From contig PDLQ01000017.1 of NCBI GenBank assembly GCA_002591745.1, positions 1 through 64,000 of the forward strand: 64,000 nt of DNA. The letters are read 5' to 3'. This DNA is from Lewinellaceae bacterium SD302. Its GTDB lineage: Bacteria; Bacteroidota; Bacteroidia; Chitinophagales; Saprospiraceae. Below are positions 1,410 through 45,047 of this stretch, in pieces. A program made the position numbers and the translations under genes. How positions within the stretch are numbered: the first letter of the stretch is position 1; every line of letters begins with the position of its first letter. A model generated the notes under the pieces. The model did no database searches, was not told the DNA's origin, and saw only the letters and a list, made by a program, of their open reading frames with translations.

Positions 1410-2966
1410 CTAACGGCGTTGATAAAGATGGCTGACCACTCCTAACCGCCTCCAGGTCTGTATGGGCGTGTACTCCGCTTCGATGTAATCCAGTTCATCG
1501 TCACTAAAGTCGTTGTGAATACCGGCTACGAAAACATATTTCTGGTTCCGGTCAAATTTGGGAAAGCCGGCTTCCTCACCGTTTAACAGTCGATTATCCA
1601 CCGGTCCGATGGAAGGGAAAACGCTGCCGACGCTTTCCAACTCTATATTATGCCCGACGGAATAATCCAGGGCGGCGGTATAATGCTCGTGGTAGACCGA
1701 ATGTAGCGGGGTGGCGTCCCAGGCCTGGGCAACACGAAATGGATAGACCCAAAAGCTGCCACTTAGTAAGCCGATGAAGGCCAGGGTAGCCAGTGATTTT
1801 TTTACCCCTGCACTCAAATGAGTTTCCCGGAATAGCAGGTAGATGACCGTCAAATCAAAAATAATGATTCCCGGCAGGAAATAACGGGGAGAAACCATCC
1901 CACTACGAGGTACGGTCATTATCGCGATGATCCCCAGAAGGGATAGAATCAGCGAAAAAAGCAGCCGATATTTAGACAGATAAATGCGTATTTTTTTGAG
2001 ATTTCTCAGTAGCAGTAGCCCAAGAATCAGCCAGAGAAAGAACCGGCCGTAATCCAGCATCCGCCAGCCGAGAATGCCGACGTTAAAAATCATTTCTCCC
2101 GGCCCGACAGTCTGTAAAGAAGCGGCCCAGGGAGAAGCTTCGTGGTAGCCGATCCAGCCCTTAGCCAGGTAATGAGTGACCAGGTAAACAACGGCCGGAA
2201 TTCCGCCCAGGGCGTAAGGCAGCAAGGTCCTGAAGGAAAATTTGCGTCGGATGACAATAGTCTCGATCAAAAAGATGACCAGGGCTGCCATCCAGGCTCG
2301 GGTAGAAATAACGGAGAGAGCGAGGGTGGCCAGTAGGATAGTAATGGCAGTCTGATAGTCGGGTAGTGGTTTAGTAGTAGTATGGTCGTCTGGCGGTGCG
2401 GTGGTCGTTTTGGGGGCAGAATCGCCTTGTCTTTCATTCAGCATTAGCTTTGCTGATCGTCGCAAGCTCCTCGGAGTTGCTACTTTACCTTCGGTGATCG
2501 TCGCAAGCTCCTCGGAGTTGCCAGCCATAAAAAAACCATTTCGCTGCAAAACTGAATTCAGGAGCAGTAAAAAGAAAGCCAGCAGGGCCAGATCGGGACT
2601 CACCAGGCAGAGTTGCCCCAGCAAGACCGGCTCCAGTAATACAATACCGCAGAGCCAGTACCAGTGCTGACCGCCGATGTACCGGCAAAAGCGGATAAGT
2701 TGATGAAAAAGCAAAAGGTTGATCGGCCACATAGCCAGGTGACTTACCCAGAGTTTGCGACCAAAGATTTTCCACCAGCCGACCAAATAAGTGCCAAAAC
2801 CGGGTGGATGGCCGCTGTCGATGGCGTCCGGCAGCAGAAGCCCCCCCGTATAAAAGATATGACTCGCCTGCTTTGAGGCCAGTTGAATCGTATCCCAGAA
2901 AAAGGGAAAGTCTTTGGTGAGAAAAAAAACCAAAGTTGCCAGAACGAAGGAAGGAAGAAATCGCAT
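1410..2966 (-). CDS. Polytopic GT-C-like glycosyltransferase with repeat-encoded insert
   Basis: A 518-residue protein with about ten hydrophobic segments. The first periplasmic loop (KDFPFFWDTIQLASK) and the HPPG stretch at residues 53-56 resemble the dolichyl-phosphate-mannose/ArnT (GT39/GT83) superfamily, which transfers sugars from polyprenyl-phosphate donors at the outer face of the inner membrane. Donor and acceptor are not predictable. A hydrophilic loop at about residues 148-204 carries NSEELATITEGKVA followed by TPRSLRRSAKLML. Both come from two tandem copies of a repeat that also occurs in intergenic DNA, read in two different frames. The insert lies between membrane segments, where extra sequence should be tolerated. 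The ATG at 2966 is followed at once by a hydrophobic segment, which supports this start. Confidence 0.75.
   Translation of the reverse strand: MRFLPSFVLATLVFFLTKDFPFFWDTIQLASKQASHIFYTGGLLLPDAIDSGHPPGFGTYLVGWWKIFGRKLWVSHLAMWPINLLLFHQLIRFCRYIGGQHWYWLCGIVLLEPVLLGQLCLVSPDLALLAFFLLLLNSVLQRNGFFMAGNSEELATITEGKVATPRSLRRSAKLMLNERQGDSAPKTTTAPPDDHTTTKPLPDYQTAITILLATLALSVISTRAWMAALVIFLIETIVIRRKFSFRTLLPYALGGIPAVVYLVTHYLAKGWIGYHEASPWAASLQTVGPGEMIFNVGILGWRMLDYGRFFLWLILGLLLLRNLKKIRIYLSKYRLLFSLILSLLGIIAIMTVPRSGMVSPRYFLPGIIIFDLTVIYLLFRETHLSAGVKKSLATLAFIGLLSGSFWVYPFRVAQAWDATPLHSVYHEHYTAALDYSVGHNIELESVGSVFPSIGPVDNRLLNGEEAGFPKFDRNQKYVFVAGIHNDFSDDELDYIEAEYTPIQTWRRLGVVSHLYQRR
2441..2522 (-). repeat. Family A palindromic repeat, two tandem copies inside a gene
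   Basis: Two adjacent units (2441-2480 and 2481-2522) each contain, read on the minus strand, the imperfect palindrome GCAACTCCGAGGAGCTTGC (CTCC/GGAG and GCAA/TTGC arms, one bulged C) followed by GACGATCA. They are joined by a GGTAAAGTAGCAA bridge. The copies are in different reading frames of the surrounding gene: the first is read NSEELATIT, the second TPRSLRRSA. Other copies lie at 11764, 16531, 20989, 38998 and 44971. Confidence 0.9.
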
Positions 2967-2980
2967 CGGAGGTAATGTAC

Positions 2981-3075
2981 AATGATCTAATGTAACAATG
3001 ATTTAATGATGCAATGTTGGTTTACATCAGTTCGACTGATTACATCAATTAATCACTACCCCATTCAATCATTAC
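2981..3075. repeat. Family B intergenic repeat (TAATGATnnAATGA words), copy 1
   Basis: The gap between two minus-strand genes is almost filled by AATGATCTAATG, AATGATTTAATGATGCAATG and, inverted, CATTCAATCATTAC. The direct words on the left and complementary words on the right give an imperfect hairpin. The right end overlaps the stop codon of the gene ending at 3072. Four further copies are at 18352, 42862, 45052 and 61521. Confidence 0.85.
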
Positions 3076-4261
3076 TCTTGGGGAAAATACCCGATACTAC
3101 CCCCCACCCAGGTCTTGCCCTTATTGTAACGTACCCCGATCATTTTACCTTTACTGAGGCGGACGAGATTATTAACCAGGATAGGCTCAGGCTCATCGGG
3201 GGGCCAGAGATACATCAGGCGAACTTCGGCGCGGGCCGGCTCGTCGAGGGTTTTGATGAGGGGGGCGTATTCTACTTTTTCCTGCAGGATATAATGGTCC
3301 TTGTTCCCCACGGCATTTATTTCTGCGCGGGTGGGATTAAGCACGACTCCCGCTCCGGCAAAACTATAGAGCGGTTTGAGTACGTAATTTTCCAGGTCAG
3401 TGGGCAGATCCGGATCGCTGAGAAAGAAAGATTTTGGAACGTAGCGACTGTCAAACTCCGGCAGAGTATGTTTGGACAACATGAAGAACCACTCCGGGTG
3501 ACCTGCCCAGTCGACGTCGACGTCCTCGGTCATATTGAATTGGCGCTCCAGGTCCGGCCGTTGCAGCAACTCGTCGAAAATAACCCGGTTGAAGATGCGC
3601 TTGACCTTGGTTTTGACCCCATCGCGAAGGTAAAAAAGCTCCCGGCCTTCCAGAATGAGGTCGGAGATGCAGAGTTCGGCGATTCCGAGTTGATCGCAGG
3701 CCACGACGAAATCGATGCGGGTGGTTTGTTTTTCGGGTTCGACTTCCAGCAGGACGACGTGTCTGGGGTCCTCACCATTAAGGATACAGGCTCTGAGCAA
3801 CTCGTGGTAGCGCTCGCGGTCCAGCCCGTTGAAGAAACTACCGTAGCCTTCCGGAATATCGAAATACTTTCGGTAGGCCCGCCCCAGCAATTCCTGGAAA
3901 AAGTAGAGCGACGGGAACCCCTGGGCCTCGATAAGACGGGGCTCGATGCTGCCATCCGCCATTTTACAGAGGCCGTAATCCATTTGGATGAACAACGGGT
4001 GAGGGGTGCGGCCGGGTACCCGCTGGTCTGGCAACAAGGCCCATTCGGCCCGCTCGCTGAAGCCGGGAGCGGTAATGACTTTAGTGACGTCGGCCGAGGC
4101 CGCCATCAGGTGATCCCGCAGTTCCGCGGAGATGAAAATGGGGGTTTCGGAGACGTGAAAATTGGGAGTGCAATCGTGTTGCTCACTCAACCAGGCGAGC
4201 ATGACATCGTAGCGGGATTGGGAAAAATTTTCGTTGTAAACAGTCCTTAGAGTGGGAATCA
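3072..4261 (-). CDS. ATP-grasp-like protein of unknown substrate
   Basis: From ATG at 4261 the protein is 396 residues, beginning MIPTLRTVYNENFS. The stretch NYVLKPLYSFAGAGVVL resembles the ATP-grasp lysine/glycine-loop signature. RLIEAQGFPSLYFFQELLG, GEDPRHVVLLEVEPEKQ and the C-terminal GVRYNKGKTWVGGSIGYF are well-formed conserved-looking blocks, so I read it as an uncharacterised member of the ATP-grasp or glutathionylspermidine-synthase-like group. It lies 54 nt after the RluA-type gene on the same strand, probably in one operon. An in-frame TTG at 4319 would overlap the upstream stop codon, but those residues do not look conserved, so I prefer the ATG. The fold call is moderate; substrate unknown. 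Confidence 0.65.
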
Positions 4262-4315
4262 TAGATAGTGGGTGGTAAGCAGCTGAAACCCCAAGATAGC
4301 CGTCCAGGTTCGTAT

Positions 4316-6007: not shown

Positions 6008-6058
6008 CGGGCACAAAGGTCGTTAAAGCATTGCTACTTTGAAGCCCTGGCAATTAAT

Positions 6059-7099: not shown

Positions 7100-7188
7100 G
7101 TTTTAGGTTTTAACCTAAAATACGGCAGCCACCTTTACTCACTCGTTGAATACTGGAGTTTAGCGATTTTTTAACGCTATTGTCGGGC

Positions 7189-7200
7189 TAGCAAAGTAGC
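7189..7200 (-). repeat. Isolated core motif GCTACTTTGCTA
   Basis: One of about twenty scattered copies of the GCTACTTTG core seen in this window, here in the gap upstream of the secreted-protein gene (7100-7355), without the rest of the family A unit. Confidence 0.5.
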
Positions 7201-7355
7201 AGTGTCCAGGAACAATTATTTCCGTCGGCTTACTAAGATACAGGACCGGTAAATTTCCACGAATTGCGAATTTTTGCCCCCTCTAAACAATCCTGGCCTC
7301 AAGACATTTTTCGGGCCGAAAATCCCCTGCGTCGATTTATCGTTCAGCCGAAGTC

Positions 7356-8768: not shown

Positions 8769-8807
8769 ATCGTTGCAACGGGGAGAAGCGAAGATGGTTT
8801 ATTTTCT

Positions 8808-8832: not shown

Positions 8833-8923
8833 GAAGTATGCCCTTTTTCAAGTAGTTTGAAATTACAAGCGATCGTGATGTCGCAGTTATTGAAACTTTC
8901 ATAAATACAATCTGCTTACAAAA

Positions 8924-11415: not shown

Positions 11416-11934
11416 ATGCTTCGCTCATTCCTGTTGTTACTAAACGCCGTTTTCTTCTTTGGGTCAGTTTCTGCCCAAACCGAGCTAAACGTCTACCGCT
11501 TCGAGCAACTCGACAGCTTGCGGAGCATCGAGGATCGGCCGGTGGTGGTTTTCCTGAATACCGATTGGTGCCGCTACTGCCGCAAAATGGAGAACGTCAC
11601 TTTTCAGGACGAGTGGATCGCCACCACCCTCAACGAGCATTGCTACTTTGTTAACCAAAATGCGGAACAACCCGAACCCATCACGTACCGGGGCAAAACC
11701 TTTAATTTTCGGCCTACGGGTAATAATACCGGCGTGCATGAACTGGCGGAAATATTGGTTTTGACTGGCAACTCCGAGGAGCCTGCGACGATCACCGAAG
11801 GTAATGTAGCAAAGTTGAGTTTTCCGACAACGGTCATTCTCGGGCCAGGCGACGAACGGATTTTCCTGCACAAGGGCTATTTGGGGAGACGGGAAATGCG
11901 GGCAGTCTTGGAGAGCTTATTAGACCTACACTGA
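11416..11934 (+). CDS. Secreted thioredoxin-fold protein carrying a repeat-encoded insert
   Basis: 172 residues with signal peptide (1-20). The thioredoxin fold is shown by VVVFLNTDWCRYCRKMENVTF (active-site WCRYC, residues 51-55) and the cis-proline loop SFPTTVIL (Pro137), with GYLGRREMRAVLESLL as the last helix. It probably acts as a periplasmic thiol reductase or exchange protein. Residues about 117-133 (TGNSEEPATITEGNVAK) are encoded by a family A palindromic repeat also found in noncoding DNA. It sits directly before the strand leading into the cis-proline, where a compact thioredoxin normally has a short turn. The gene lies 142 nt after the TonB receptor, separated by an inverted repeat. 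Confidence 0.85.
   Translation: MLRSFLLLLNAVFFFGSVSAQTELNVYRFEQLDSLRSIEDRPVVVFLNTDWCRYCRKMENVTFQDEWIATTLNEHCYFVNQNAEQPEPITYRGKTFNFRPTGNNTGVHELAEILVLTGNSEEPATITEGNVAKLSFPTTVILGPGDERIFLHKGYLGRREMRAVLESLLDLH
11764..11814 (+). repeat. Family A palindromic repeat inside the thioredoxin-fold gene
   Basis: GGCAACTCCGAGGAGCCTGC, then GACGATCACCGAAGGTAATGTAGCAAAG. It differs by only a few bases from the copy at 2481-2522 and from noncoding copies, and keeps the reading frame as NSEEPATITEGNVAK. Confidence 0.9.
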
Positions 11935-16530: not shown

Positions 16531-16584
16531 TGACTATCAAAGTAGCAACTCTAAGGAGCTTGCGACGATCAGCGAAGCTAATGC
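16531..16584 (+). repeat. Family A palindromic repeat, intergenic copy
   Basis: TGACTATCAAAGTAGCAACT continues as CTAAGGAGCTTGCGACGATC and AGCGAAGCTAATGC. It lies in the 288-bp gap between rsmG and a lipoprotein gene. This copy joins the GACTAnCAAAGTAGC end to the AACTCcnaGGAGCTTGC palindrome in one contiguous piece, so it defines one boundary of the element. Confidence 0.85.
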
Positions 16585-18330: not shown

Positions 18331-18347
18331 TTGCTACTTTGTTAGTC
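18331..18347 (+). repeat. Isolated core motif TTGCTACTTTGTTAGTC
   Basis: A 17-nt core directly abutting a family B element, just as at 45031-45046 where the same two sequences are also adjacent. This suggests the core is a separate, composable unit. Confidence 0.7.
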
Positions 18348-20942: not shown

Positions 20943-20988
20943 CGATCAATCCCAGGGAGTAACTTAATCTTTGGTCATATTTTATTTT

Positions 20989-21033
20989 CCAAACCCGAAG
21001 AGTTTGCGACAATAGCTGAGGCTATAGTAGCAA
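20989..21033 (+). repeat. Family A repeat, diverged intergenic copy
   Basis: CCAAACCCGAAGAGTTTGCG then ACAATAGCTGAGGCTATAGTAGCAA: same order of blocks as the other copies (CTCCgaGGAGctTGCGACgATcnnnGAAG..nGTAGCAA) but with compensating-looking changes, suggesting an older copy. Confidence 0.65.
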
Positions 21034-21040
21034 TATCCAC

Positions 21041-25381: not shown

Positions 25382-25399
25382 CCTTTAGGTTACTTTGGC

Positions 25400-25411
25400 T
25401 AACAAAGTAGC
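25400..25411 (-). repeat. Isolated core motif GCTACTTTGTTA
   Basis: Plus strand GGCTAACAAAGTAGCAAGG in the gap between paralogue 2 and the hydrolase/OsmC gene; no family A palindrome is attached. Confidence 0.6.
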
Positions 25412-25438
25412 AAGGCTTATGAACGCCGGATGTCGAAT

Positions 25439-26665
25439 TTAACCCAGCTCTGTATTCACCACTACCTCACCGTGCAAGGTCCGGTGTACCGGGCAGCGGT
25501 CCGCAATTTCCAGCAAGCGCCGGACCTGTTCTTCACTCAGGTCACCTTCGAATTCAATGACCCGATCAAAGTGATCGACCTTTTGTTTAGGCTCGCCCTT
25601 TGAGGAGACGGCCATCATGTCTTTTTCGTAATCTTTCCGGTGATCCAAATGAACGCGGACTACTTCCACCGGCCATTTTTTGCGACGGGCGTACATCTGG
25701 ATGGTCATGGCCGTACATGCTCCCAGACCGGCACTAACGAGTTCATAGGGATTAGGGCCGAAATCGTTACCGCCGATGCTTTCCGGTTCATCGGCCGTCA
25801 GGCTGTGACGGCGCACCATTACCTCGGTGGTGAAGCCTTCTGTACCGAGACGAACGGCTACGCTGTGGCTACTGCGCAGCGCCTGTTCTTCTTTTGAGTC
25901 TACCGGCTTAACGTAGCGACCGGACCACCCGGCAATTACTTCGCCGGCGTAGTGACTGTCCGTTTTATCACTGAGCAAATGATCCGCCCCGTCCAAAGAA
26001 ACGAAGCTTTTGGGGTGCCTGGCGGCATGGTAGATTTTTGCTGCCTCGTCGATGTTCACGGTCGTATCCTGGGGAGAGTGTAATATGAGGAGGGCTTTGC
26101 CCAGCTGGCCAATTTTCTCTGCTACTTTGTTAGCCACCAAATCATCCAGGAACTGTTGCTTGATCTTAAAGTCGCGGCCACCAATATTGACCGTCGCCTC
26201 TCCCTTGGCCATAATTTCTTCCAGTCCGTTTTTGAGTAAGCCTTTGATGTGATCCACTTCGAAAGGAGCGCCGATGGTAGCGACCGCAACCACACTCGGT
26301 AATTGGTGGGCCGCACAAAGTACCGCCGCACCACCCAAACTGTGCCCAACCAATAAACTCGGTGCCAGATGATTTTCCGTTAGCCAATCTGCTGCGGCAA
26401 CCAAGTCCGAGATGTTAGTGGTGAAATTACTGTCGGCAAAATCGCCCTCGCTGCCGCCCAGGCCGGTGAAGTCGAAGCGCAGCACGGCGATTCCTTTTAA
26501 ATTTAAAGCCCTGCTGATCTGGCGTACGGCTATCAAAGAACTCGAACAGGTGAAACAGTGAGCAAAAATGGCGTAGGCATGAGGGTGGCGATCCACGGGC
26601 ATTTCCAGGCGGGCAGACAACTGGATTCCTGCGGCGTTAGGGAACTTAATCTTCTCTGATCGCAT
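25439..26665 (-). CDS. Alpha/beta hydrolase-OsmC fusion protein
   Basis: 408 residues. Residues 1-250 form an alpha/beta hydrolase: VLRFDFTGLGGSEG, nucleophile elbow SLLVGHSLGGAAVL (GHSLGG), Asp loop LILHSPQDTTVNIDEA and His near GADHLLSD. Residues 265-408 form an OsmC/Ohr domain with SAGLGACTAMTIQMYARRKKWPVE (one redox Cys) and DRCPVHRTL (second Cys), the pair that reduces organic hydroperoxides. This fusion is known in other bacteria. It probably detoxifies peroxides and hydrolyses an associated ester. It diverges from a small ORF across a region with an ACAAATTGT palindrome of the kind bound by OhrR/MarR repressors. Confidence 0.9.
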   Translation of the reverse strand: MRSEKIKFPNAAGIQLSARLEMPVDRHPHAYAIFAHCFTCSSSLIAVRQISRALNLKGIAVLRFDFTGLGGSEGDFADSNFTTNISDLVAAADWLTENHLAPSLLVGHSLGGAAVLCAAHQLPSVVAVATIGAPFEVDHIKGLLKNGLEEIMAKGEATVNIGGRDFKIKQQFLDDLVANKVAEKIGQLGKALLILHSPQDTTVNIDEAAKIYHAARHPKSFVSLDGADHLLSDKTDSHYAGEVIAGWSGRYVKPVDSKEEQALRSSHSVAVRLGTEGFTTEVMVRRHSLTADEPESIGGNDFGPNPYELVSAGLGACTAMTIQMYARRKKWPVEVVRVHLDHRKDYEKDMMAVSSKGEPKQKVDHFDRVIEFEGDLSEEQVRRLLEIADRCPVHRTLHGEVVVNTELG

Positions 26666-31320: not shown

Positions 31321-33138
31321 TCAGCGTACGACGCTCAGTTTTCGTTTCACCAAATGCCCGGTACTCCCGGTATTCATCAGCACGCCCGTGTCTCCGGGTT
31401 GGATTTCGGCAGCATTGCCTTCATCGGTGTCGATGTGCATTTCCAGGGCGTACTTTTCAGAGACACGTATCAGGACATTTCCAAATGTAAGTGATCTTTC
31501 GGCACCGCCAACGGAAACCTCCACTACGTCCCGGTCCTGCACACCAAAGCGGAGCGCATCTTCGGGAGTCATGTGGATATGGCGCCAAGCACAGATCACC
31601 CCGTCTTCGATGTCGACGGAGCCCGCAGGACCAATCAGTTTACACCCCGGGGTATTTTCTACCTTACCCGATTCACGAACCGGTGCGTCGATACCGAGAA
31701 AGAACTCATCCGTCCGGCTGATCTCAACCTGGTCTTTACTGCGTAATGGACCTAAAATCCTGACCCTCTCGATTTGATTGCGTGGCCCCACTACGGTCAC
31801 CGTTTCCTCAGCGGCGAATTGCCCGGGCTGGGAAAGCCATTTTCTGACCTTTAATTCGTGGCCCTCACCGTAAAGAGTATCCAGCGTTTCACGGGTCAGG
31901 TGAATATGACGGGCGGAAATGGCCACCGGAATCTGTGGCAACTGGTTTACTTCATCGGCCTTGGCGATCATTTTTGAGCAGTCGCGGGCAATGGCCAGTT
32001 GCTCATCGGTCTTTACGGCTAACAAACGCACCCGACTGTGTCGCATACTGAATTCGGCAACCGGCTGGTCTTCGCTTAACTGTAAAATACTGTTTGCGTC
32101 TTCGTTGATAATGGCCCCCAGGAAGTTCAGCCGTTGAGCTGCACGGTGGCGGATGACCTTGCTGTTTTCACCGATACCACCGGTAAAGACAATGGCATCC
32201 ACCCCGCCCATGATGGCTGCATAAGCGCCAATGTATTTCCGCAGGCGATGAGTGAATACTTGTACGGCCAGCTGGCAATCTGCGTTACCGTTTGAGGCGG
32301 CTTCCAGGATGGTCCGTAAATCATTCCCGACACCGGAAAGGCCGGCCAGGCCGCTTTGCCGATTTAGGAGGTGATCGATCTCCTCCAGCGACAGACCGGC
32401 CTGGTCGTGAAGGTAGGTTGGAATGCCGGGGTCCAGATCGCCACTTCGGGTGCCCATGACGAGGCCTTCCAGCGGTGTCATACCCATACTCGTTTCCACG
32501 GACCGCCCGAATTCGATAGCCGCGACGCTACAACCATTGCCCAGGTGACAGGAAATAACACGCAGGTTGCGTAAATCATCTTTCAGGTACTCAGCGGCTT
32601 TGCGGCTGACGTATTGGTGGCTCATCCCGTGGAAGCCATAGCGACGAATACCATACTTATCCATCAACTCTTTTGGCAGTGCGTAGGTCTTGGCCCTGCG
32701 TGGCATACTCTGGTGAAAAGCAGTATCGAAGACAGCGTAGTGATTGTGGTCCGGGAACAGTTCTCTGGCAATCTCTATCCCGCGCAAGTTAACCGGATTG
32801 TGAAGCGGGGCCAGTCGGCTTTGCTCGCCAATTAACATTGCTACTTTGTCAGTCAGTAAAACCGGTCGGTCGAAAGCCTCCCCGCCGTGGACGACCCGAT
32901 GACCTACACCGGATATTTCCGTGTCACCCAGTTTATCCTTTAGCGCCAGCAAGCAACTCTTCAAGGCATTTTCGTGGCCTGTTCTTTTTAATTCTACCTG
33001 ACTACCATCAGAAAATTCGGCGACCGGGTCATCCAGTAATCTTTCGGCCGTAAGTGATATCATCCGCTGACCGTTGAGTGGATCAATGATTGCGGCCTTC
33101 AGGGAAGAACTCCCTACGTTGAGTACCAGGATATGCAT
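31321..33138 (-). CDS. Acetate kinase fused to PduL-type phosphotransacylase
   Basis: 605 residues from ATG at 33138 (MHILVLNVGSSSLKAAII). Residues 1-390 are acetate kinase: NVGSSSLK, GHRVVHGGE, VFDTAFHQSMP, YGFHGMSHQYVS, HLGNGCSVAAI and FTGGIGEN. Residues about 400-605 are a PduL phosphate acyltransferase with the zinc-binding SARHIHL and WRHIHMTPEDA repeats. One polypeptide thus links acetyl-CoA, acetyl-phosphate and acetate with ATP formation. An upstream in-frame extension to 33249 is not supported by family alignment. It is divergent from a T9SS gene, the two start codons being 94 nt apart. The stretch TDKVAML coincides with a copy of the GCTACTTTGTCA core (32840-32851). Confidence 0.9.
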   Translation of the reverse strand: MHILVLNVGSSSLKAAIIDPLNGQRMISLTAERLLDDPVAEFSDGSQVELKRTGHENALKSCLLALKDKLGDTEISGVGHRVVHGGEAFDRPVLLTDKVAMLIGEQSRLAPLHNPVNLRGIEIARELFPDHNHYAVFDTAFHQSMPRRAKTYALPKELMDKYGIRRYGFHGMSHQYVSRKAAEYLKDDLRNLRVISCHLGNGCSVAAIEFGRSVETSMGMTPLEGLVMGTRSGDLDPGIPTYLHDQAGLSLEEIDHLLNRQSGLAGLSGVGNDLRTILEAASNGNADCQLAVQVFTHRLRKYIGAYAAIMGGVDAIVFTGGIGENSKVIRHRAAQRLNFLGAIINEDANSILQLSEDQPVAEFSMRHSRVRLLAVKTDEQLAIARDCSKMIAKADEVNQLPQIPVAISARHIHLTRETLDTLYGEGHELKVRKWLSQPGQFAAEETVTVVGPRNQIERVRILGPLRSKDQVEISRTDEFFLGIDAPVRESGKVENTPGCKLIGPAGSVDIEDGVICAWRHIHMTPEDALRFGVQDRDVVEVSVGGAERSLTFGNVLIRVSEKYALEMHIDTDEGNAAEIQPGDTGVLMNTGSTGHLVKRKLSVVR

Positions 33139-33232: not shown

Positions 33233-35872
33233 ATGACGCGACTATTCACTTTAATGGCCCTGCTTACGGCCTCTTTTACGCTCTATTCCCAAGCCTTTAA
33301 TACTGTACTACGCGACAACCTGGATTACTCACAGGATCTGAACGACGTGTGGGGATACGTAGCGCCGGACGGCACTGAATATGCCCTGGTGGGTACCCGT
33401 ACCGGCTTATCCATCGTCAGTCTGGCGGATCCGGACAACATCAGCGAGGTTGCTTTCATCTCCGGCGATGCCTCTACCTGGAGGGATATGAAAACTTACA
33501 ACGAGTACGCTTACGTAGTGGCTGACTCAGGAAACGACGGTTTGCTCATCGTGGACCTCAGCGGCTTACCCGCCGGCGTAACCCACCAATACTATAACGT
33601 TCCAGTGGGCAACGGCACCCTCACTCAAAGCCACAACATTTACATCGACACGGACAACGGTCTGGCTTATCTGGCCGGTTCCAACCTGAACAGCGGGGGA
33701 ATGGTGATTCTCGACGTAGCTACCACGCCGGGGCAAGCTATTCACGCAGCCAATGCACCGAATACCTATTCCCACGACGTGTATGTGCAGGACGATGTGA
33801 TGTACGCCTCGGAAATTTACGAAGGCGAGATCAGGCTCTATGACGTTGCCGACATCAATAACATCTCCGAGATAGGGGCCGAGGTAACGCCCCTTGATTT
33901 CACCCACAACGCCTGGTCTAACGCCGCGGCTACCCACGTCTGGACCACCGACGAGCGAGCCAATGCTCCCACCGCTGCCTATGATATCACCGATCCGACA
34001 AACCCGACACTGATCAGTGAGTTCTTTCCTCCCCGTAGCGTGAATACTGGTACCATTCCACACAATGTGCACGTTTTGGACAATTACCTGATCATCAGCC
34101 ACTACACCGACGGGTTGGAGATCGTTGATGCCTCAGTGCCCGAAAATCCGGTAGAAGTCGCTTACTACGATACCTGGAGCGGTGGCAACGGTGGCTTCAA
34201 CGGTTGTTGGGGAGCTTATCCTTTCCTCCCTTCCGGTTTGGTACTGGCTACGGACATCGACAATGGCCTATACGTCGTGGAAGTCACTTATCAACGGGCT
34301 GCCCGCATCAAGGGAACAATTACCGAAGACGACTTTAGTGGCCCTAATCTGAATAATGTACTGGTCAGTATTACCAACCCGGACGGCACAACGACCAATA
34401 CCAATGCCTCCGGATTTTACCAGACTGGATTCGTTGATGCCGGAAATTACACGGTCACTTTTTCTTTGCCGGGCTACGTCGACGTAGTAAAAAGCCTGGA
34501 TTTCGTCAACGGGCAGGAAATCGTGCTGGACACCTTCATGACCTTCGACGTAGGTAGTAGCTCTCAGGTAAACGGAGCGGTTTATGATGAAGTCAACAAC
34601 GTAAATTTAGAAAACGGGCAGGTTATTCTCATTGGCTCCGACGCAACATACACCGATAACAGCGACGCTTCCGGCCTGCTCGATTTCGGGCTGGTGCTGG
34701 AAGATCAATACAGCGCATCATCGGGTTTATGGAGTTTTGAGAACCGTCAGGTCAATGTAGATATTAACGGCCCGGCCAATATTGACTTTCCCCTCACTTC
34801 CGGCTATCTGGATGGCTTCGTGGTCGACCAGGGCTGGGTAGCCACTGCCGATGCCAGTACCACCAGTGGATTTTGGGAAAGAGCGGTCCCGGTAGGCACT
34901 TTGTTGAATGGTAATCCTTCCAACCCCGGTAATGATGCCGGTGGAGGGACGGACATCGGCGAGCTGGCTTACGTGACCGGTAACGGCGGCGGAACTGCGG
35001 GAACGGATGACGTAGATGGCGGCAACGTTACCCTCACTTCTCCCACGATTGATTTCAGCAGTTTCCCGGACCCGAATATCGTGGTCATCAGTTACGATTA
35101 CTGGTTCGTCACCGGCGGCGGCAATACACCCGTGAACGATAATTTGACAATCTCCATTACCAACGGCATCAGTACCGAGGTGATCGCTACCTATACCGAC
35201 AATACCAACGCCTGGGTTAACGTAGACTACGAACTCAACGATCTGGGTATCGCCCTGACGCCCAATATGCAGATCATCGTTCAGACCGGCGACCTCGGCG
35301 GTGGCCACGTGGTCGAAGCCGGCTTTGACGACTTCCGTATCTACGAAAACGCGGCTCTACCGGTAGAACTAAGCGCTTTCACGGTCCAAAAGATCGACGA
35401 TAAGCGAAGTCTGCTCAACTGGACCACCGCCAACGAAGACGGGAACGCCGGTTTCCGGATAGAACGGGCCACTGACGGTCGCAACTTCCAGGAAATAGGT
35501 TTCGTGAGCGGAGCAGGGAACAGCCGCAATGAAAACAGCTATACCTTCATCGACGAAAATCCACTGCCAGGCATCAATTACTACCGCCTCCGTCAACTCG
35601 ACCTGGATGGAAAGACGGCGTTCAGCGACGTAAAGAGCCTGACTTTTGGGGCTATGGGCAAGGAACTTTCCGTATTTCCGAACCCAGCCAATGATTTTCT
35701 CCAGATCAGTGGACTTGAAGGGGCCGGCAGCTTGCAGCTATTCAACAGCAGTGGTAAAGAGATCGGCGGCTATACGATCGATGCGAACGGCAGACTCAAT
35801 ATCAGTCAACTACGCGCCGGCAGTTACGTGATTCAGATGGCTGGCAAAGTAGCAAGGTTTACGAAGCAGTAA
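33233..35872 (+). CDS. Choice-of-anchor-B type beta-propeller protein with T9SS sorting domain
   Basis: About 879 residues from ATG at 33233 (signal peptide MTRLFTLMALLTASFTLYSQ). Residues about 20-360 form LVIVD-type propeller repeats (GLSIVSLADPDNISEVAFISG, GLLIVDLSGLP, GLEIVDASVPENPVEVAYYD). Next comes a carboxypeptidase-like regulatory repeat (LNNVLVSITNPDGTTTNTNA), a jelly-roll-like region, a segment FRIERATDGRNFQEIGFVSG and the type A sorting domain (VFPNPANDFLQISGL). Secreted by the T9SS; may bind or process extracellular polymers. The start is placed after 53 non-conserved codons. Its last codons (AGKVARF) contain the AAAGTAGC core motif. Confidence 0.88.
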   Translation: MTRLFTLMALLTASFTLYSQAFNTVLRDNLDYSQDLNDVWGYVAPDGTEYALVGTRTGLSIVSLADPDNISEVAFISGDASTWRDMKTYNEYAYVVADSGNDGLLIVDLSGLPAGVTHQYYNVPVGNGTLTQSHNIYIDTDNGLAYLAGSNLNSGGMVILDVATTPGQAIHAANAPNTYSHDVYVQDDVMYASEIYEGEIRLYDVADINNISEIGAEVTPLDFTHNAWSNAAATHVWTTDERANAPTAAYDITDPTNPTLISEFFPPRSVNTGTIPHNVHVLDNYLIISHYTDGLEIVDASVPENPVEVAYYDTWSGGNGGFNGCWGAYPFLPSGLVLATDIDNGLYVVEVTYQRAARIKGTITEDDFSGPNLNNVLVSITNPDGTTTNTNASGFYQTGFVDAGNYTVTFSLPGYVDVVKSLDFVNGQEIVLDTFMTFDVGSSSQVNGAVYDEVNNVNLENGQVILIGSDATYTDNSDASGLLDFGLVLEDQYSASSGLWSFENRQVNVDINGPANIDFPLTSGYLDGFVVDQGWVATADASTTSGFWERAVPVGTLLNGNPSNPGNDAGGGTDIGELAYVTGNGGGTAGTDDVDGGNVTLTSPTIDFSSFPDPNIVVISYDYWFVTGGGNTPVNDNLTISITNGISTEVIATYTDNTNAWVNVDYELNDLGIALTPNMQIIVQTGDLGGGHVVEAGFDDFRIYENAALPVELSAFTVQKIDDKRSLLNWTTANEDGNAGFRIERATDGRNFQEIGFVSGAGNSRNENSYTFIDENPLPGINYYRLRQLDLDGKTAFSDVKSLTFGAMGKELSVFPNPANDFLQISGLEGAGSLQLFNSSGKEIGGYTIDANGRLNISQLRAGSYVIQMAGKVARFTKQ

Positions 35873-37660: not shown

Positions 37661-37664
37661 CCTC

Positions 37665-38942: not shown

Positions 38943-38997
38943 CGCTGCTACCTTAGCTTCGCTGCTCTTCGCGGACCATTTTCGTTCTCGCAATAAT

Positions 38998-39056
38998 AGC
39001 TTTGCTACTTTACCTTTGGTGATCGTCGCAAACTCCTCATACTTGTTAGCCAGTAA
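38998..39056 (-). repeat. Family A repeat, intergenic copy
   Basis: AGCTTTGCTACTTTACCTTT, then GGTGATCGTCGCAAACTCCT and CATACTTGTTAGCCAGTAA. It fills the gap between the dihydroorotase-like and GT2 genes. A partial further copy (GCTGCTACCTTAGCTTCGCT) lies at 38944-38963. Confidence 0.85.
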
Positions 39057-39069
39057 GACGGATAATACC

Positions 39070-39085
39070 CTGAGAAGCTTCTCAG
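39070..39085. promoter_or_regulatory. Perfect 16-bp palindrome upstream of the GT2 gene
   Basis: CTGAGAAGCTTCTCAG, 22 nt upstream of a TATCTTTG promoter box. Could be an operator. It also resembles a decayed family A end (AGCTTCTCAGAGTTG versus AGCTCCTCGGAGTTG), so it may be repeat-derived. Confidence 0.45.
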
Positions 39086-39107
39086 AGTTGAAGTCATAAC
39101 AAGCCCT

Positions 39108-39115
39108 TATCTTTG
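39108..39115 (+). promoter_or_regulatory. -7 promoter box TATCTTTG
   Basis: Perfect TAnnTTTG match ending 7 nt before the ATG of the GT2 gene, implying a 5' leader of only a few bases. Confidence 0.6.
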
Positions 39116-39122
39116 CCGCCCT

Positions 39123-40073: not shown

Positions 40074-40077
40074 CTAG

Positions 40078-40677
40078 ATGCTGCGCTTCCTTCGCACGGG
40101 TGCTTCCAGGCGATCTTCCGAAGTGGACGACGCTACTTTGCTGGCCCGTTTCCAGCGAAGCCACAAGGCCGAAGACCTCAGCCCGCTTTTCAACCGCCAC
40201 CTGGAACTGATCTACGGTCAGTGTCTACGCTACCTGCGTGCGCCGGAAAGGGCCGAAGATGCCGCCATGGAAATTTTTGAGCATCTGCTGCGTAAACTGC
40301 CCGGCCAATCCATCGACAATTTTCGCAATTGGCTGCAGAGTGTCGTCCGTAATTTCTGCCTTATGCAACTTCGCAAGGACAAACGCGACCCCCTGAAAAA
40401 TAGCGGAGAACTGCTTGTGCATTCCGAGCCCTTTGAGCATCCAGTAGGTGAACTTGAAGAAGAAAAAGATGAACAAAGTCAACACTTGGCCGACTGCCTG
40501 GGCGAGTTGGCCGAACAACAGCGTCAGTGTATCCAGCGTTTTTACCTCGAAGAGGGGCAAACGTACAAAAGCATTGCCGCAACCTTAGAACTGGACGTCG
40601 GCCGGGTTCGTTCTTACATTCAGAATGGCCGCCGTAACCTCCGCAATTGTATTGAATCAAAAAAGTCATTTCACTGA
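40078..40677 (+). CDS. ECF-type RNA polymerase sigma factor
   Basis: 199 residues. Region 2 includes DLSPLFNRHLELIYGQCLRYLRAPERAEDAAMEIFEHLL; region 4 includes LGELAEQQRQCIQRFYLEEGQTYKSIAATLELDVGRVRSYIQNGRRNL, with the helix-turn-helix in its second half. It directs transcription of a small regulon and is probably held by the membrane protein encoded directly downstream (3 nt later). The start ATG lies 4 nt after the glycosyltransferase stop. The codons for DDATLLA contain the GCTACTTTG core in sense orientation. Confidence 0.92.
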   Translation: MLRFLRTGASRRSSEVDDATLLARFQRSHKAEDLSPLFNRHLELIYGQCLRYLRAPERAEDAAMEIFEHLLRKLPGQSIDNFRNWLQSVVRNFCLMQLRKDKRDPLKNSGELLVHSEPFEHPVGELEEEKDEQSQHLADCLGELAEQQRQCIQRFYLEEGQTYKSIAATLELDVGRVRSYIQNGRRNLRNCIESKKSFH

Positions 40678-40680
40678 TCC

Positions 40681-41991
40681 TTGGCCAACGCTAATCGACA
40701 TATCCCCCAAGACGAGTTGCTCCGCCGCTACCTGAGCGGGGAGATCGACGCCCGTGGCGAAGCCGAACTATTTCGCGCCGCCGGGGAAGACGATGCCCTT
40801 GCGGAGGCTTTGGCCGGTTACCAGCTTGCTCCGGAAGCCGATCATCAGGCCAGTCTAAGCAAGCTAAGGAGTAAATTACCCGGGGCGAAGCGCAAAAGCC
40901 TGATTCCCGTCCGGGTCATTTCCATTGCTGCCAGCTTGCTGCTGTTGTTGTTCGTTGGTTATTATGGCTACCAAAGTAGCAATGATTACGCTACGGCGGC
41001 CGAGGCCGCTCCCATGGCCGACAGCAAAGCCCCGGCAGGTGAAAAAGCGCTGAAACCCGCTAACGATCTTGAAGCCGAGCCTTCGGTTTTAGCGTCACCC
41101 TCGACTAACATGCCCTCCAAAGACGAAGTTTCCAGCCGGGCACCAACCACAAAAGAAAGAGTTGAATATAGAGTCGAAGACGAAGCGACTCCCCCATCTC
41201 AACGTATCCCGGAAAACGTCGATCAGGATCTGACCAATACGACAGCTGCCGTTCCGCCTCCACCTCCTTCGGCTCCCGTACTCGCTGAACCGGAACCTGA
41301 GATAGCCGATGATGAGGCTATGACCTTCGAGGAAGTAGCACCCGCAGCCAGTGTGCTGGCTGATTCTCCGCACAGACGAGCAGATGCAAAAATGGCCCCC
41401 GATGCAAAAAAACGTCCGGCGGGTGTAAGGGTTATCTCCGGTTTCGTCACCGATGAAAACGACCGGCCCATCGCCAGCGCCAGCATCACTTTACCCGGTC
41501 AGCCCATCGGGGAGTCTACTGACTCCAGTGGCTATTTCGAGTTCGTAGCCGATCAAACGGTTAGCCAACTTCAGGTAGGCCACCCTGAATTTGAGGACGG
41601 AGAAATTTTGCTGCCCCGTAACGAAAACGAGTTGATCATCAATCTGAGCAAGCCCGCTGATTTGGCGGATGATGAAGATGACTGGCTCATGTCCGGAGCA
41701 CGTACCACCGTTTATCCGAATGCCGAAAAAACCAGTGCTACGATTAAAGGAGGAATGCGCCAGCTTCGTCGTGACATTCAAGCGGCCAAACCGGATGACC
41801 TGCCCGCCGGACTGGTTAAAGTTTCCTTCTCCGTACAGGCCGATGGTTCCCTGACTGACTTCAGCTTCGGTCGCAAATCCGAAGAACAGCTGATTGACTT
41901 CGTGCGCAATTACCTCCAGCAACAAAGCCAATGGAAACTGAGGGGGGGGAGTACGCCTACCCGTATGGCAATTACCTTTCGATTCCGCTAA
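40681..41991 (+). CDS. Membrane anti-sigma-like protein with carboxypeptidase-regulatory and TonB-like C-terminal domains
   Basis: 436 residues read from TTG at 40681, 3 nt after the sigma-factor stop; no ATG lies before the membrane helix. The cytoplasmic N-terminus (RHIPQDELLRRYLSGEIDARGEAELF) looks like an anti-sigma zinc-finger-type domain without its His/Cys. One membrane helix (about residues 78-97) is followed by a Pro/Glu-rich periplasmic linker (130-235), a carboxypeptidase-like repeat (ISGFVTDENDRPIASASITLPG) and a C-terminal domain resembling TonB-C (GLVKVSFSVQADGSLTDFSFG). It would bind the sigma factor inside and sense an outer signal. Confidence 0.8.
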   Translation: MANANRHIPQDELLRRYLSGEIDARGEAELFRAAGEDDALAEALAGYQLAPEADHQASLSKLRSKLPGAKRKSLIPVRVISIAASLLLLLFVGYYGYQSSNDYATAAEAAPMADSKAPAGEKALKPANDLEAEPSVLASPSTNMPSKDEVSSRAPTTKERVEYRVEDEATPPSQRIPENVDQDLTNTTAAVPPPPPSAPVLAEPEPEIADDEAMTFEEVAPAASVLADSPHRRADAKMAPDAKKRPAGVRVISGFVTDENDRPIASASITLPGQPIGESTDSSGYFEFVADQTVSQLQVGHPEFEDGEILLPRNENELIINLSKPADLADDEDDWLMSGARTTVYPNAEKTSATIKGGMRQLRRDIQAAKPDDLPAGLVKVSFSVQADGSLTDFSFGRKSEEQLIDFVRNYLQQQSQWKLRGGSTPTRMAITFRFR

Positions 41992-42120
41992 GAGACCTGG
42001 CAAGGACGACATTTCCTGACTTTCGACCAGTAGCCTGCTTTTACCGATCAACACCGGCATTGAGGGCAAACTTCGTGGCCCGTTTATTGGTTTCATTAGG
42101 GTAATCATCAGCTATACTAC

Positions 42121-42861
42121 ATGCTCACCGTATTTCCACTTTCTCAAGACAACATGCTCGGTTTCACCCTCGATGGCGACATTGACGATTCCGGAGTCAG
42201 TCTCTTCGTAACGGCCGTAGAAGCCAAAGTACTCACCCACGGCAAGGTCCGCTTGCTTGGGAACATCAAGAATATCGGGGGCTTCGACAGTTTCCGTACT
42301 TTTTGGGACACCCTGCGAACCAAGAAGGAACTATGGGATAAGATCGAGAAGTACGCTCTTCTTTCAGACAGTAGTATCCTGGACTCCGCCGTAAGCAACC
42401 TGAGCTGGCTGGCCGCCCACATCGAGATCAAGACCTTCAAACTCAGTGAAGGCGAAGCGGCCCACGAGTGGCTCAAGGCACCTATCGCGCTGAAGGAATC
42501 CAAGGCACTGAAGTTCGTCGATCTGGGCCAGGACAACCTTCTCGGCCTCGCCATCGTGGATAAGATGGAAGTCGCGGACTACGAGAAATTCAATTACTAC
42601 GTAAGCGACAAGGTAGAGCAGTATGGTAAAGTCCGTCTTTTCCTGGAGATCGTAGACATGAAGGGCGTTAGCCTCCGGGCACTCTACGAAGACCTGAAAA
42701 CGGCCATCAAGCACTACGGTTCGATAGAGCGAATGGCCATCATCGGCGATCAGAGTTGGTTAAAAGGCAGTGTAAAGGTAAGCGACCTTCTCACCCCCGG
42801 TTTGGACATGGCTGCCTTCGGCACAGATGAACGGGCGCGGGCGATCGATTGGCTCAAGTAG
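42121..42861 (+). CDS. Tandem SpoIIAA-like (STAS-related) protein
   Basis: 246 residues made of two copies of one domain of about 120 residues. Copy 1: DNMLGFTLDGDIDDSGVSLFVTAVEAKVLTHGKVRLLGNIKNI. Copy 2: DNLLGLAIVDKMEVADYEKFNYYVSDKVEQYGKVRLFLEIVDM. Each then has a helix and a strand ending in EKYALLSDSS or ERMAIIGDQS, followed by an FxxxExxxAxxWLK-type end. This is the SpoIIAA-like fold found in many environmental bacteria, of uncertain role (lipid or nucleotide binding proposed). It is isolated on the plus strand and is followed immediately by a family B repeat. Confidence 0.85.
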   Translation: MLTVFPLSQDNMLGFTLDGDIDDSGVSLFVTAVEAKVLTHGKVRLLGNIKNIGGFDSFRTFWDTLRTKKELWDKIEKYALLSDSSILDSAVSNLSWLAAHIEIKTFKLSEGEAAHEWLKAPIALKESKALKFVDLGQDNLLGLAIVDKMEVADYEKFNYYVSDKVEQYGKVRLFLEIVDMKGVSLRALYEDLKTAIKHYGSIERMAIIGDQSWLKGSVKVSDLLTPGLDMAAFGTDERARAIDWLK

Positions 42862-42966
42862 TAATGATCCAATGGGGTAATGATTTAATGATTTAATACA
42901 GCAGCGTGATACTGGCCGCTAAAGCGGCTATTAGCTCATTAGATCATTACCTTATTCTATCATTAC
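42862..42966. repeat. Family B intergenic repeat, copy 3 (best preserved)
   Basis: GTAATGATCCAATGGGGTAA and TGATTTAATGATTTAATA on the left match, inverted, TATTAGCTCATTAGATCATT and ACCTTATTCTATCATTAC on the right, giving arms of nearly 40 nt. The centre holds ACAGCAGCGTGATACTGG and the palindrome GCCGCTAAAGCGGC. It fills the space between two convergent stop codons exactly, overlapping the second stop by one base. Confidence 0.92.
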
Positions 42967-44915
42967 TAATTCGGCAGCAGGAAGTGCCAGAAGAATCTGC
43001 CAATTCCGCTACGCGCCTTACCGGTCTGGTCACTATTGATCACCGTTGGGTCACCGTCCATGGGCCGGAGGTAGACGCCGCTGAAAAACACATCCAGTAC
43101 GTTCAGTTCGGATTCTACCAGAAAACGGGTATGTTGTTGCCAGGCCAGGATGCGGTGTTGAGGAACGCTGGTAGAGGGGCCGACCTTATCTCCACTCGTC
43201 CCCTCTAATAGTACGTTTCCTTTGGAACGCAGTATCAGTTTTCCGGGTCCGGTGGCCGCCGTGAAGAACATCTTGCCCAGTAACATGGATTCCATCCGCA
43301 GGCTAACGATTCTTTTCAGCTTTACTTCCCCGCTCATCGCCACAAAGTCGCTCAGGCTAAATATCACGGATTCTCCTTCTGCCAGTTCCCACTCCACGAA
43401 TTCAATTCCGATAGCCGCATTGAAATCTACCGCCGGCCGGCCTGCTTCCATGATCAGACGATTCATGGCCCAGGTACCGCTGAGTATACGACCGACCATG
43501 CCTACGTGCCACTGGGGTAAAGCAATTTTGGGCGCGCGGCCCGCCGGCTCGAACCTTCTGCTCACGAAATAGTGGCCGCGTTCGCTATCCGCTATCCGGT
43601 AATTGGCACCTTGCAGGCTTATCTTACCGTGAGCCATTGGCAATTCAGTCTCTGCCAAGGTAGCGAAGGTATTGCCCTTATCGCTTGAAAAGAGCACTCT
43701 AGCCAGTACATAGGTGTAGCTTTTAAGTACTACGAAAAAGAAGCCGATCTCCGATAAGAAAAGAAACAGCAATAACAGACGGTAGGAATTAAGGGTGGTG
43801 GATTCAGTTTCCGAGCGGGTCTGTTCAATTTGGCGATCTATCTCGGCGTCCAGATCGGCCAGTTTTTCTTCCGCACTTTTATCTCCCTGGCGCATAAAGC
43901 CATCCAATCGACGCTCCGTATCATCGGCGAGCTTACGCCCCGTTTCCCGGAATGCATCGCTGGCTGCGGCGGAAGCAGCCCGGGCAGCCCCCTGGGCCGC
44001 ATGACAATCTAACCGCCACCAGGCACAGTCCAGATCAATTTTCTTCACTTTGGGTGGTACGATACTGTTTCGGATCAGGTCACCTACCACATCGGGCGCA
44101 GCAGCGGCTACGTCGGCAGATGCTTGTCGGAGAGAATCGACCTTGCGATGAGCCTGGATTTTCATGCGACTCTGCAAAGAATCCAATGACTTATCCAGAT
44201 CGACCTCAAAGTGACTCAGGTGAGTATAGTCGTTGAGGAAAGTAAAATTGTAGACGCCTTCAGCAGCTTTCTGCTCCAGCATTTCCGTGAAGTAATAACT
44301 CGGCACTACCACAAGCAGCATCGGAGACCAGAGCAGTAGGGCCAGCCCGGCCCCCAGGATGAATTTACTCCACCCCAGACGAGCGACGGTGCGCCAATTT
44401 TGACTTACCAGAATGATTACAAACCGGATCATTAACGTAACCCCCAGAAACAAAGCCAAGTGAAGCATTCCCAGACTAAGCCAGACAATAGCCAGAAAAA
44501 CCCAAAACATACGCTTCCTGACTCCTCCCTCGTAGAGAAACCATCCATAAGCCAATGGTCCACTCAATTGAAAGAGTTCCCGAAACAGAGGGTTTGGTAA
44601 TATCCAAGTGAGCCACAGTAATAATAAAGGCAACATCCTTAACAGAGGATGCCAGTATTTTCGATCCCGACAAATAATATAGGCCAATGGCAGCCCCAGC
44701 AAAGCGAGCGATACTACGATGGTGTATAGCACCGAACCACCCGGTGGGTAACCAAAATCAATGAGAAAAAGCGAATAATCGTTGATCCCCGGCAGCAAGG
44801 CCAATAGAATCATTAATTGCAGAAAATCTTCTTTTGGGCGGCGAGACAGGCGGCTCAGTAGTTCCTCGTAAGCGACTGACAAAAGCAATGGGTTTAGATA
44901 AAACGGTCCAGTCAT
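42966..44915 (-). CDS. Polytopic membrane protein with C-terminal AIM24-like domain
   Basis: 649 residues. About six membrane segments (20-200), a long Ala/Asp-rich helical extracytoplasmic or cytoplasmic stretch with two Cys-containing motifs (DLDCAWWRLDCHAA), another membrane segment (about 375-400), then a beta-rich domain (about 470-620). That domain includes ESVIFSLSDFVAMSGEVKLKRIVSLRMESML, LGKMFFTAATGPGKLILRSKG, matching the AIM24/DUF124 beta-helix domain. Such domains occur near stress-response and toxic-ion genes; the exact role is unknown. The fusion of a polytopic N-terminus to AIM24 looks unusual to me. Confidence 0.75.
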   Translation of the reverse strand: MTGPFYLNPLLLSVAYEELLSRLSRRPKEDFLQLMILLALLPGINDYSLFLIDFGYPPGGSVLYTIVVSLALLGLPLAYIICRDRKYWHPLLRMLPLLLLWLTWILPNPLFRELFQLSGPLAYGWFLYEGGVRKRMFWVFLAIVWLSLGMLHLALFLGVTLMIRFVIILVSQNWRTVARLGWSKFILGAGLALLLWSPMLLVVVPSYYFTEMLEQKAAEGVYNFTFLNDYTHLSHFEVDLDKSLDSLQSRMKIQAHRKVDSLRQASADVAAAAPDVVGDLIRNSIVPPKVKKIDLDCAWWRLDCHAAQGAARAASAAASDAFRETGRKLADDTERRLDGFMRQGDKSAEEKLADLDAEIDRQIEQTRSETESTTLNSYRLLLLFLFLSEIGFFFVVLKSYTYVLARVLFSSDKGNTFATLAETELPMAHGKISLQGANYRIADSERGHYFVSRRFEPAGRAPKIALPQWHVGMVGRILSGTWAMNRLIMEAGRPAVDFNAAIGIEFVEWELAEGESVIFSLSDFVAMSGEVKLKRIVSLRMESMLLGKMFFTAATGPGKLILRSKGNVLLEGTSGDKVGPSTSVPQHRILAWQQHTRFLVESELNVLDVFFSGVYLRPMDGDPTVINSDQTGKARSGIGRFFWHFLLPN

Positions 44916-44970
44916 TTAACCGACTGACTCATTGCAAGTTACGATCTTATCGTGAAATTCACCCAGCCAG

Positions 44971-45047
44971 CCTTGCTGTTATACCTTCAGCGATGGTCGC
45001 AGGCTCCTCGGAGTCAGCTCGCTAAAACACTGCTACTTTGTTAGTCC
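44971..45047 (-). repeat. Family A repeat joined to a core motif, intergenic copy
   Basis: CCTTGCTGTTATACCTTCAG, CGATGGTCGCAGGCTCCTCG, GAGTCAGCTCGCTAAAACAC and TGCTACTTTGTTAGTCC. The unit is followed directly by family B copy 4, so two repeat families fill this gap together. Confidence 0.85.

Follow-up and report, generated by a model that had tools for sequence, protein, structure and literature searches.

A palindromic module nested in a species-specific motif, between genes and in frame within genes of Lewinellaceae bacterium SD302

Repeat copies in the window and their two components

The 64,000-nt stretch analysed here (the window; contig PDLQ01000017.1, positions 1 to 64,000) belongs to the 5.48 Mb genome of Lewinellaceae bacterium SD302, termed the home genome or G000, and carries a dispersed palindromic repeat that lies both between and within genes. 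A first-pass annotation made from the letters of the window had described seven copies between positions 2441 and 45047, three of them in two genes and four intergenic. All seven are present and mutually alignable, and the two host open reading frames (ORFs), 1410-2966(-) for the pair at 2441-2522 and 11416-11934(+) for the copy at 11764, both stay open. The proposed order of parts, a palindrome, GACGATC and a closing AAAGTAGCAA part, is true of full copies, whereas at 2441-2480 and 16531 the 3' AAAGTAGCAA part is missing and ..GCTAATGC closes the copy; nor do the seven form one type, the copies at 20989 and 44971 being degenerate. Moreover, the repeat is not one simple element. A palindromic module is nested inside a separate, species-specific motif of 726 places, termed M2, which frames the repeat and had been overlooked in the annotation; with up to two mismatches, M2 occurs 13 times in the window compared to 0.03 expected. 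Below, labels such as G062 denote genomes, and labels such as L006 and L007 denote sequence stretches (loci). The module-bearing copies of the window and their host genes are as follows.

1410..2966, reverse strand: host gene 1, a 518-aa ORF with no Pfam or NCBIfam match
2476..2526, reverse strand: split element, full copy (module in M2), in frame in ORF 1410-2966; encodes MAGNSEELATITEGKVA
2435..2485, reverse strand: second module, in tandem with the 2476..2526 copy, without the 3' M2 half; encodes TPRSLRRSAKLM
11416..11934, forward strand: host gene 2, thioredoxin-like (PF13098)
11763..11814, forward strand: split element in frame in the thioredoxin-like gene; encodes LTGNSEEPATITEGNVAK directly before the FPTT segment; homologues lack the insert
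16532..16584, forward strand: intergenic copy, 5' M2 then module ending GCTAATGC
20984..21034, forward strand: intergenic copy, degenerate
39000..39095, reverse strand: intergenic copy (39001-39051) after a second, hairpin-like part
44971..45047, reverse strand: intergenic composite of M2 (45031-45046) and a degenerate module (44972-45022)

The core GAGSAGYTTGCGACGATC, with up to three mismatches, matches seven times in the window versus 0.18 expected, a number reached by none of 100 shuffles. Profile and pattern scans of the home genome bore out the expectation of copies well above chance, with 55 core matches (36 on the forward and 19 on the reverse strand) compared to a reversed-pattern control of 0/0. 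Five of the 55, with ..GACGTCC, seem to belong to a second small family, (A/G)AGGAGCTTGCGACGTCC, which resembles the module core and ends in GTCC (home-genome positions C2:116, C64:11197, C64:11340, C76:50933 and C93:4584).

M2 reads TTTTGRCTAAC joined directly to AAAGTAGCARWGYT, the two halves that frame the repeat, and the module sits at their junction. As a motif of 16-25 nt it can be written TTTT-GRCTAACAAAGTAGCARWGYT (search pattern GRCTAACAAAGTAGCA), with a near-invariant core CAAAGTAGCA and weaker flanks that are T-rich on one side; among all 10-mers of the window, CAAAGTAGCA exceeds its expectation most strongly (15 versus 0.30). With up to one mismatch, the 726 places in the home genome divide into 376 and 350 by strand (control 0), a density of one per 7.5 kb, and in 39 other genomes, 18 of the same genus, there are one or two matches in six and none in the rest. 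Among the first listed stretches with exact M2 (51 sites in 40 stretches), 12 sites are genic and 39 intergenic, the latter comprising 19 between tandem genes, 15 between divergent genes, none between convergent genes and five of undetermined orientation. The 12 genic sites read as (A/T)NKVA or, reversed, ATLL(V/A). In contig C1 the 22 exact sites are more evenly spaced than random (coefficient of variation 0.61 versus 0.93; 1.4% of simulations) and have no strand polarity, nine being on the forward and 13 on the reverse strand. Seven of the 13 M2 in the window lie in ORFs, and its solo copies are listed below.

7186..7201, forward strand: intergenic
11641..11656, reverse strand: antisense in thioredoxin-like gene 11416-11934; gapless against homologues
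18332..18347, reverse strand: intergenic
25397..25412, forward strand: intergenic
26120..26135, reverse strand: exact, in a hydrolase/OsmC fusion; encodes VANKVA
32839..32854, reverse strand: in acetate kinase; encodes LTDKVA; gapless against 2iir
35839..35854, forward strand: at a C-terminal type IX secretion system (T9SS) sorting tail
40966..40981, forward strand: in ORF 40681-41991
48446..48461, forward strand: antisense in a DUF1800 gene
51643..51658, reverse strand: edge of ORF 51650-52363, scored intergenic
55821..55836, forward strand: in ORF 55633-56811; encodes QTNKVA

The thioredoxin-like gene thus holds both forms, a split element in sense and a solo M2 in antisense, about 110 nt apart. 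In addition, the A/T-rich words ATGATTTAAT and ATTAGATCATTA are repeated in the window (5-8 copies, <0.2 expected), and some intergenic M2 copies are preceded upstream by similar sequence. The T9SS sorting tails observed agree with a Bacteroidota host.

The module is a palindromic unit of 31-36 nt, approximately CTCCGAGGAGCTTGCGACGATCAsCGAAGsT with AA on each side, and comprises a hairpin CTCC.GA.GGAG, a constant linker CTTGCGACGATC and a hairpin ACC.GAA.GGT or AGC.GAA.GCT. In full copies GRCTAAC (or GRCTTC), with T's before, borders the module on one side and AAAGTAGCARWGYT borders it on the other. By reading, AA flanks the module on both sides in most copies of both genera in which it is found (see below), and possibly represents a target duplication. 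Among 27 copies, pairing in the second hairpin reaches 98.8%, and in seven of them one pair is preserved by a change from C-G to G-C (one unpaired). By contrast, the first palindrome is imperfect: 81% of its cells are paired, and the two weakest pairs fail to form in 18 and 10 of the 27 copies. None of 500 shuffles reached the observed pairing or the covariation score; the count of two-sided pair changes was matched by shuffles (303/500). The RNA fold of three typed unit sequences was no better than that of shuffles (z of 0.91, -1.23 and 0.30), and an Rfam scan of the window gave no match at gathering score.

Longer variants fall into a C type of 93 nt (L112, L146 and L147), a D type of ~130 nt (L101 and L132, 86% identical over 141 nt) and an E type of ~130 nt that holds an intact M2 inside. 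Thirteen of the E forms gave no convincing common fold, with 11 pairs predicted, one of which has a two-sided change. A longer autonomous element was sought by comparing all loci with one another and rejected, as the longest module-bearing match spans 181 nt (L028/L153) and the others ~140 nt, among the 60 longest of 604 matches. In L028 and L153, which share this 181-nt match, a larger inverted repeat (GAACTCAxTA..TAxTGAGTTC) has the module in its loop. The 3' flank of a copy in a Lewinella metagenome-assembled genome (MAG; L032) is similar to theirs, and a self-inverted stretch of ~180 nt adjoins a module copy in L128 (1521-1700).

A split pattern with both M2 halves gave 43 matches in the stretches examined, nine in genes and 34 others. 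For the comparison of split with solo forms, 34 split matches were used, 13 of which stop at an intact inner M2, leaving 21 clean. Of the clean ones, 17 carry T at -4, 18 carry G at +4 and 14 carry T at +6; the corresponding numbers for 128 solo copies are 97, 114 and 90, so that the outer positions of the two forms agree. The T-rich side took no part in finding the split copies, whereas the +4 and +6 letters were in one query and outside the model; the 12 copies of the model have G at +4 in 10 and T at +6 in eight.

Copies inside genes and in other genomes

Placement was counted for 97 of the 143 copies of the home genome with a home-made codon-score gene caller, which missed the thioredoxin-like ORF, so that its copy counts as intergenic although it is in fact genic, and which began the M61 gene L007 downstream of its copy. 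The same caller served for the 51 exact M2 sites and for the insert lengths given below, the thioredoxin-like ORF being added by hand for the latter. In this count 85 copies are intergenic (46 tandem, 26 divergent, six convergent and seven at stretch ends), 10 lie inside genes and two overlap a gene end. Altogether, the frame check found copies in frame in 12 genes unrelated to one another.

In the window: the 518-aa ORF and the thioredoxin-like gene
Near the N-terminus: CotH-like (L006), M61 peptidase (L007) and CcoG (L146)
Others: cupin (L008), heparinase-like (L012), MFS (L021), SSF symporter (L101), D-Ala ligase (Ddl) fusion (L106), nitrilase (L112) and CHAT (L132)

The usual 52-nt unit has three stop-free frames out of six, and all three are used. 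In eight of the nine in-gene pattern matches the part of the insert beyond M2 has a length divisible by three, compared to 11 of the 34 others, one of which is the M61 copy L007; the ninth in-gene match, L132, was cut by the pattern, and its translation shows ~37 codons. Because only open genes get called, this result reflects in-frame survival rather than targeting. The copies of L006 and L007 are on the reverse strand and lie, by eye, within an apparent signal peptide.

Absence from relatives was compared for five of the 12 genes, namely those of thioredoxin, SSF symporter, CcoG, Ddl and nitrilase. In all five the relatives lack the same residues at the same place: no relative carries the insert in the first four, and the solved nitrilases are likewise without it. 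For the thioredoxin-like protein, none of 29 aligned homologues, two of them distant, has the insert. From the end of its LA helix to the FPT/YPS segment, which we take to be the cis-Pro site, the home protein has 24 residues, compared to 9-14 in 13 homologues (27 loci tried) and 11 in the closest one (47% identity); a fourteenth match, L089, was left out as misread. The SSF loop has 81 residues at home and 45-46 in six same-genus relatives, a gain of 35 or 36 where the module alone would give 37. The Ddl loop has 32 residues versus 8-22 in 11 of the 14 stretches measured (15 tried), and the other three stretches, from two relatives, hold unrelated repeats in the same loop. These are tandem PAESGGSEAAQ and a SPLPPGEGPG-like stretch (L216/L222 of G193 and L215 of G200, same genus). 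For CcoG the insert is absent in six relatives, although this N-terminus is variable in itself. In nitrilase, the distance between two aligned blocks is 64 positions in the query versus 30 in 22rx, and 61 versus 32 for 6i00.

Across genomes, a covariance model built from the 27 copies (search reported at E <= 1; 150 of 2330 first-look home candidates scored) places the module at least 143 times in the home genome, 78 times in G062 and 21 times in G155, the last two being of another genus. The same model gives 14-15 places in each of three same-genus genomes (best E ~0.002-0.004), which we take as background. Searched in 199 genomes of the family with up to two mismatches, the core gave 39 matches in the home genome and 16 in G062; G155 and 20 further genomes had a single match each, and the reversed control gives one or two matches in eight genomes. 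Over named genomes, a strict pattern matched two records, one from an uncultured Lewinella MAG and the other from a Bacteroidetes MAG. In viral contigs no long form of M2 or of the module was matched exactly. G062 has no M2, and there the flanks of the same module differ, being TTCCGTC..AAATTACTAA in four copies and others elsewhere; no outer motif akin to M2 was found, the joined flank pattern being absent from the G062 stretches examined. The module and its outer motif are thus separable.

Apart from these, a ~160-nt self-inverted repeat whose copies are 94-100% identical is a candidate recently active miniature inverted-repeat transposable element (MITE).

MITE-like repeat, ~160 nt: window 54153-54315; L137 1575-1736; L025 1068-1230; L012 441-604 and 2701-2865

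Possible origin of the two layers

We favour, at a probability of about 0.5, a two-layer repeat in which the palindromic module is nested in the species-specific M2. The first layer would be M2 itself, with >700 copies on both strands, mostly intergenic on the promoter side and also genic, which in most tested genic cases may have arisen without insertion. The second would be a small, non-autonomous module located mid-M2 in many places, which may have spread by insertion at AA-containing sites, chiefly M2, by means of an enzyme supplied in trans; alternatively, the split unit may have been copied as a whole. Being very common and tolerated, M2 could serve as a safe landing site. Inserts in genes would survive where their length can be divided by three and they are read in an open frame, would add 11-37 residues, and appear to sit in variable loops, where visible. 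The first-pass proposal of a mobile protein-coding repeat is upheld in that copies lie in frame in unrelated genes, whereas mobility is deduced, as no accompanying transposase was found; overall, the interpretation given there is partly supported.

The nature of M2 was approached through nine genic sites compared with homologues, five of which are gapless: acetate kinase, carotene desaturase, the thioredoxin-like gene, the OsmC fusion (gapless against 5cml, with a one-residue gap against 9wo1) and a GltPh-type transporter, whose M2 has two mismatches and could be due to chance. At L005 there is a single-residue gap against the homologue, and for L108 and L260 the PDB comparison did not reach the M2 site. 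Since solo M2 in genes appears to be mostly a gapless substitution, it looks like an uptake-sequence type of motif rather than a transposon. Judged by analogy, M2 would most likely be a motif of the DNA-uptake-sequence type, serving self-recognition or bound by a protein throughout the genome, and the site of a nucleoid or partition protein could look alike. A bolder version, in which M2 would be a putative DNA-uptake sequence in Bacteroidota and the module its parasite, landing on the abundant and tolerated M2 copies, carried along by what maintains M2 and, as a mobile coding repeat, feeding new loops into enzymes, is speculative and on balance improbable.

Several observations weigh against the two-layer reading. 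The ninth genic site, M2-like with two mismatches, lies within a 16-residue insertion of the second Ddl half that is absent from 13 relative stretches aligned. Ddl gains 18 residues over the commonest length and the thioredoxin-like protein 13 over its closest homologue, and these gains are better matched by the module together with some or all of M2 than by the module alone. A seventh same-genus SSF relative, L179, is 88% identical before the loop and has 18 residues there, and six others have 13-40, so that the SSF loop varies by itself. The CTTC form of the 5' half is present in 11 of 21 clean split copies versus 17 of 128 solo copies, so that the split copies do not represent M2 at random. 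For the copies of L006, L007 and L146 near the N-terminus the true start could lie elsewhere, and the divisibility by three partly reflects survivorship.

In a less probable account, the whole M2-module-M2 unit (54 to ~130 nt) would transpose in the manner of Rickettsia palindromic elements (RPEs), and internal deletion would leave solo M2 as the shortest form. The Ddl gain fits a whole unit, the M2-like site in an insertion and the CTTC enrichment agree with it, and similar long variants look like whole-unit copies, both the C type (nitrilase L112, CcoG L146 and intergenic L147) and the D type (L101/L132). However, solo M2 is gapless in acetate kinase, the OsmC fusion, carotene desaturase and the thioredoxin-like gene, the SSF gain is about the length of the module, and the module occurs without M2 in another genus. 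As SSF fits the module only, Ddl the whole unit and the thioredoxin-like protein lies between, both routes may occur.

Selection at promoters as a regulatory or structured RNA or DNA element, such as an operator, leader or terminator, would agree with the 39 of 51 exact M2 sites that are intergenic and with none of the 34 of known orientation being convergent. Nevertheless, it appears quite unlikely given that M2 between tandem genes has no preferred orientation (eight of 19 point along the genes and 11 opposite to them), that 13 of the 130-nt forms lack a convincing common fold and that copies lie inside enzyme genes.

Mobilisation as a repetitive extragenic palindrome (REP) by a REP-associated tyrosine transposase (RAYT, a Y1 transposase), with the GTAG of AAAGTAGCAA as the REP tag, is very unlikely, even though the genome has one RAYT-like gene (NF047646, 64 bits, below the cut-off of 80) with an M2 8 nt past its stop and an inverted M2 ~290 nt further. 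No module core lies within 1.2-1.4 kb on either side of this gene, which by eye is bracketed by a different palindrome, CCCCCGGTGGAGGACCTCCGG. Of 20 genomes compared, 19 have Y1 genes, and 16 of these 19 are same-genus genomes in which M2 is absent or has a single one-mismatch match. RAYT was thus rejected as the mover, because another palindrome brackets the gene and Y1 genes do not track M2. The gene lies in L031 (G000:C59:6670-9915) between two copies of a long palindrome with CCCCCGGTGGAGGACCTCCGG arms, probably the gene's own REP family; the arm has no copy in the window. Finally, chance or ordinary conserved residues are practically dismissed by controls of 0 and by inserts absent from relatives.

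Comparison with known repeats and uptake sequences

The palindromic elements of Rickettsia and Wolbachia are short palindromic repeats that lie between genes and in frame in unrelated genes, with no known enzyme, and in these respects the present repeat resembles them. Like an RPE, it is a dispersed in-frame palindrome absent from orthologues, in the five of 12 genes compared. The likeness is one of kind; the present repeat differs in phylum and in that its palindrome is nested in a second, species-specific motif of 726 copies. Rickettsia provides the best-known palindromic repeats that lie in frame, and isolated examples have been described from other sources (PMC3733652).

That paper (Di Nocera et al. 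2013) describes CGTC-tagged REPs, with Bacteroidetes among the hosts, and REPs inside genes of several bacteria. Repeats of this general kind are therefore known, and the first-pass statement that no such family was known for Bacteroidota is too strong, though nothing on this sequence was seen there. The module resembles CGTC REPs, which occur in Bacteroidetes among other phyla, in being palindromic, without a dedicated transposase and in part intragenic, and its reverse strand reads CGTC directly before the first hairpin. These REPs are defined there by an unpaired CGTC at one terminus of an 8-9 bp stem, whereas the conserved unit of the module runs past CGTC into a second hairpin and its first stem is bulged; its CGTC is thus doubtful as a terminal tag. 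Nor does it have the A-T first and second stem pairs and the CCA tail given there for CGTC REPs; its stem begins G-C/C-G and the following letters vary. Compared to GTAG REPs with RAYT, GTAG likewise adjoins the palindrome and the genome holds a RAYT-like gene, which differs in being flanked not by the module but by two solo M2 on one side. Within the library and terms searched, neither this repeat family and its nesting in M2 nor any established Bacteroidota uptake sequence came up. A Bacteroidota-type genome with ~12 decorated genes, conserved enzymes included, offers new ground for studying repeat movement and new protein loops.

M2 by itself resembles the DNA uptake sequences of Neisseria and the uptake signal sequences of Haemophilus (DUS and USS), with hundreds of copies on both strands (376/350, control 0), a core CAAAGTAGCA with weaker flanks, genic copies apparently mostly by substitution, even spacing in one contig and species specificity. 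It differs from them in being longer and of lower density, in another phylum, and mostly intergenic and upstream. Uptake sequences are described from Pasteurellaceae and Neisseriaceae. Riemerella columbina, a member of Bacteroidota, prefers its own DNA, and the candidate k-mers given for it are only A/T-rich (PMC7965970). If M2 were an uptake sequence, the phenomenon would reach another phylum, and the split copies would show a selfish repeat exploiting it.

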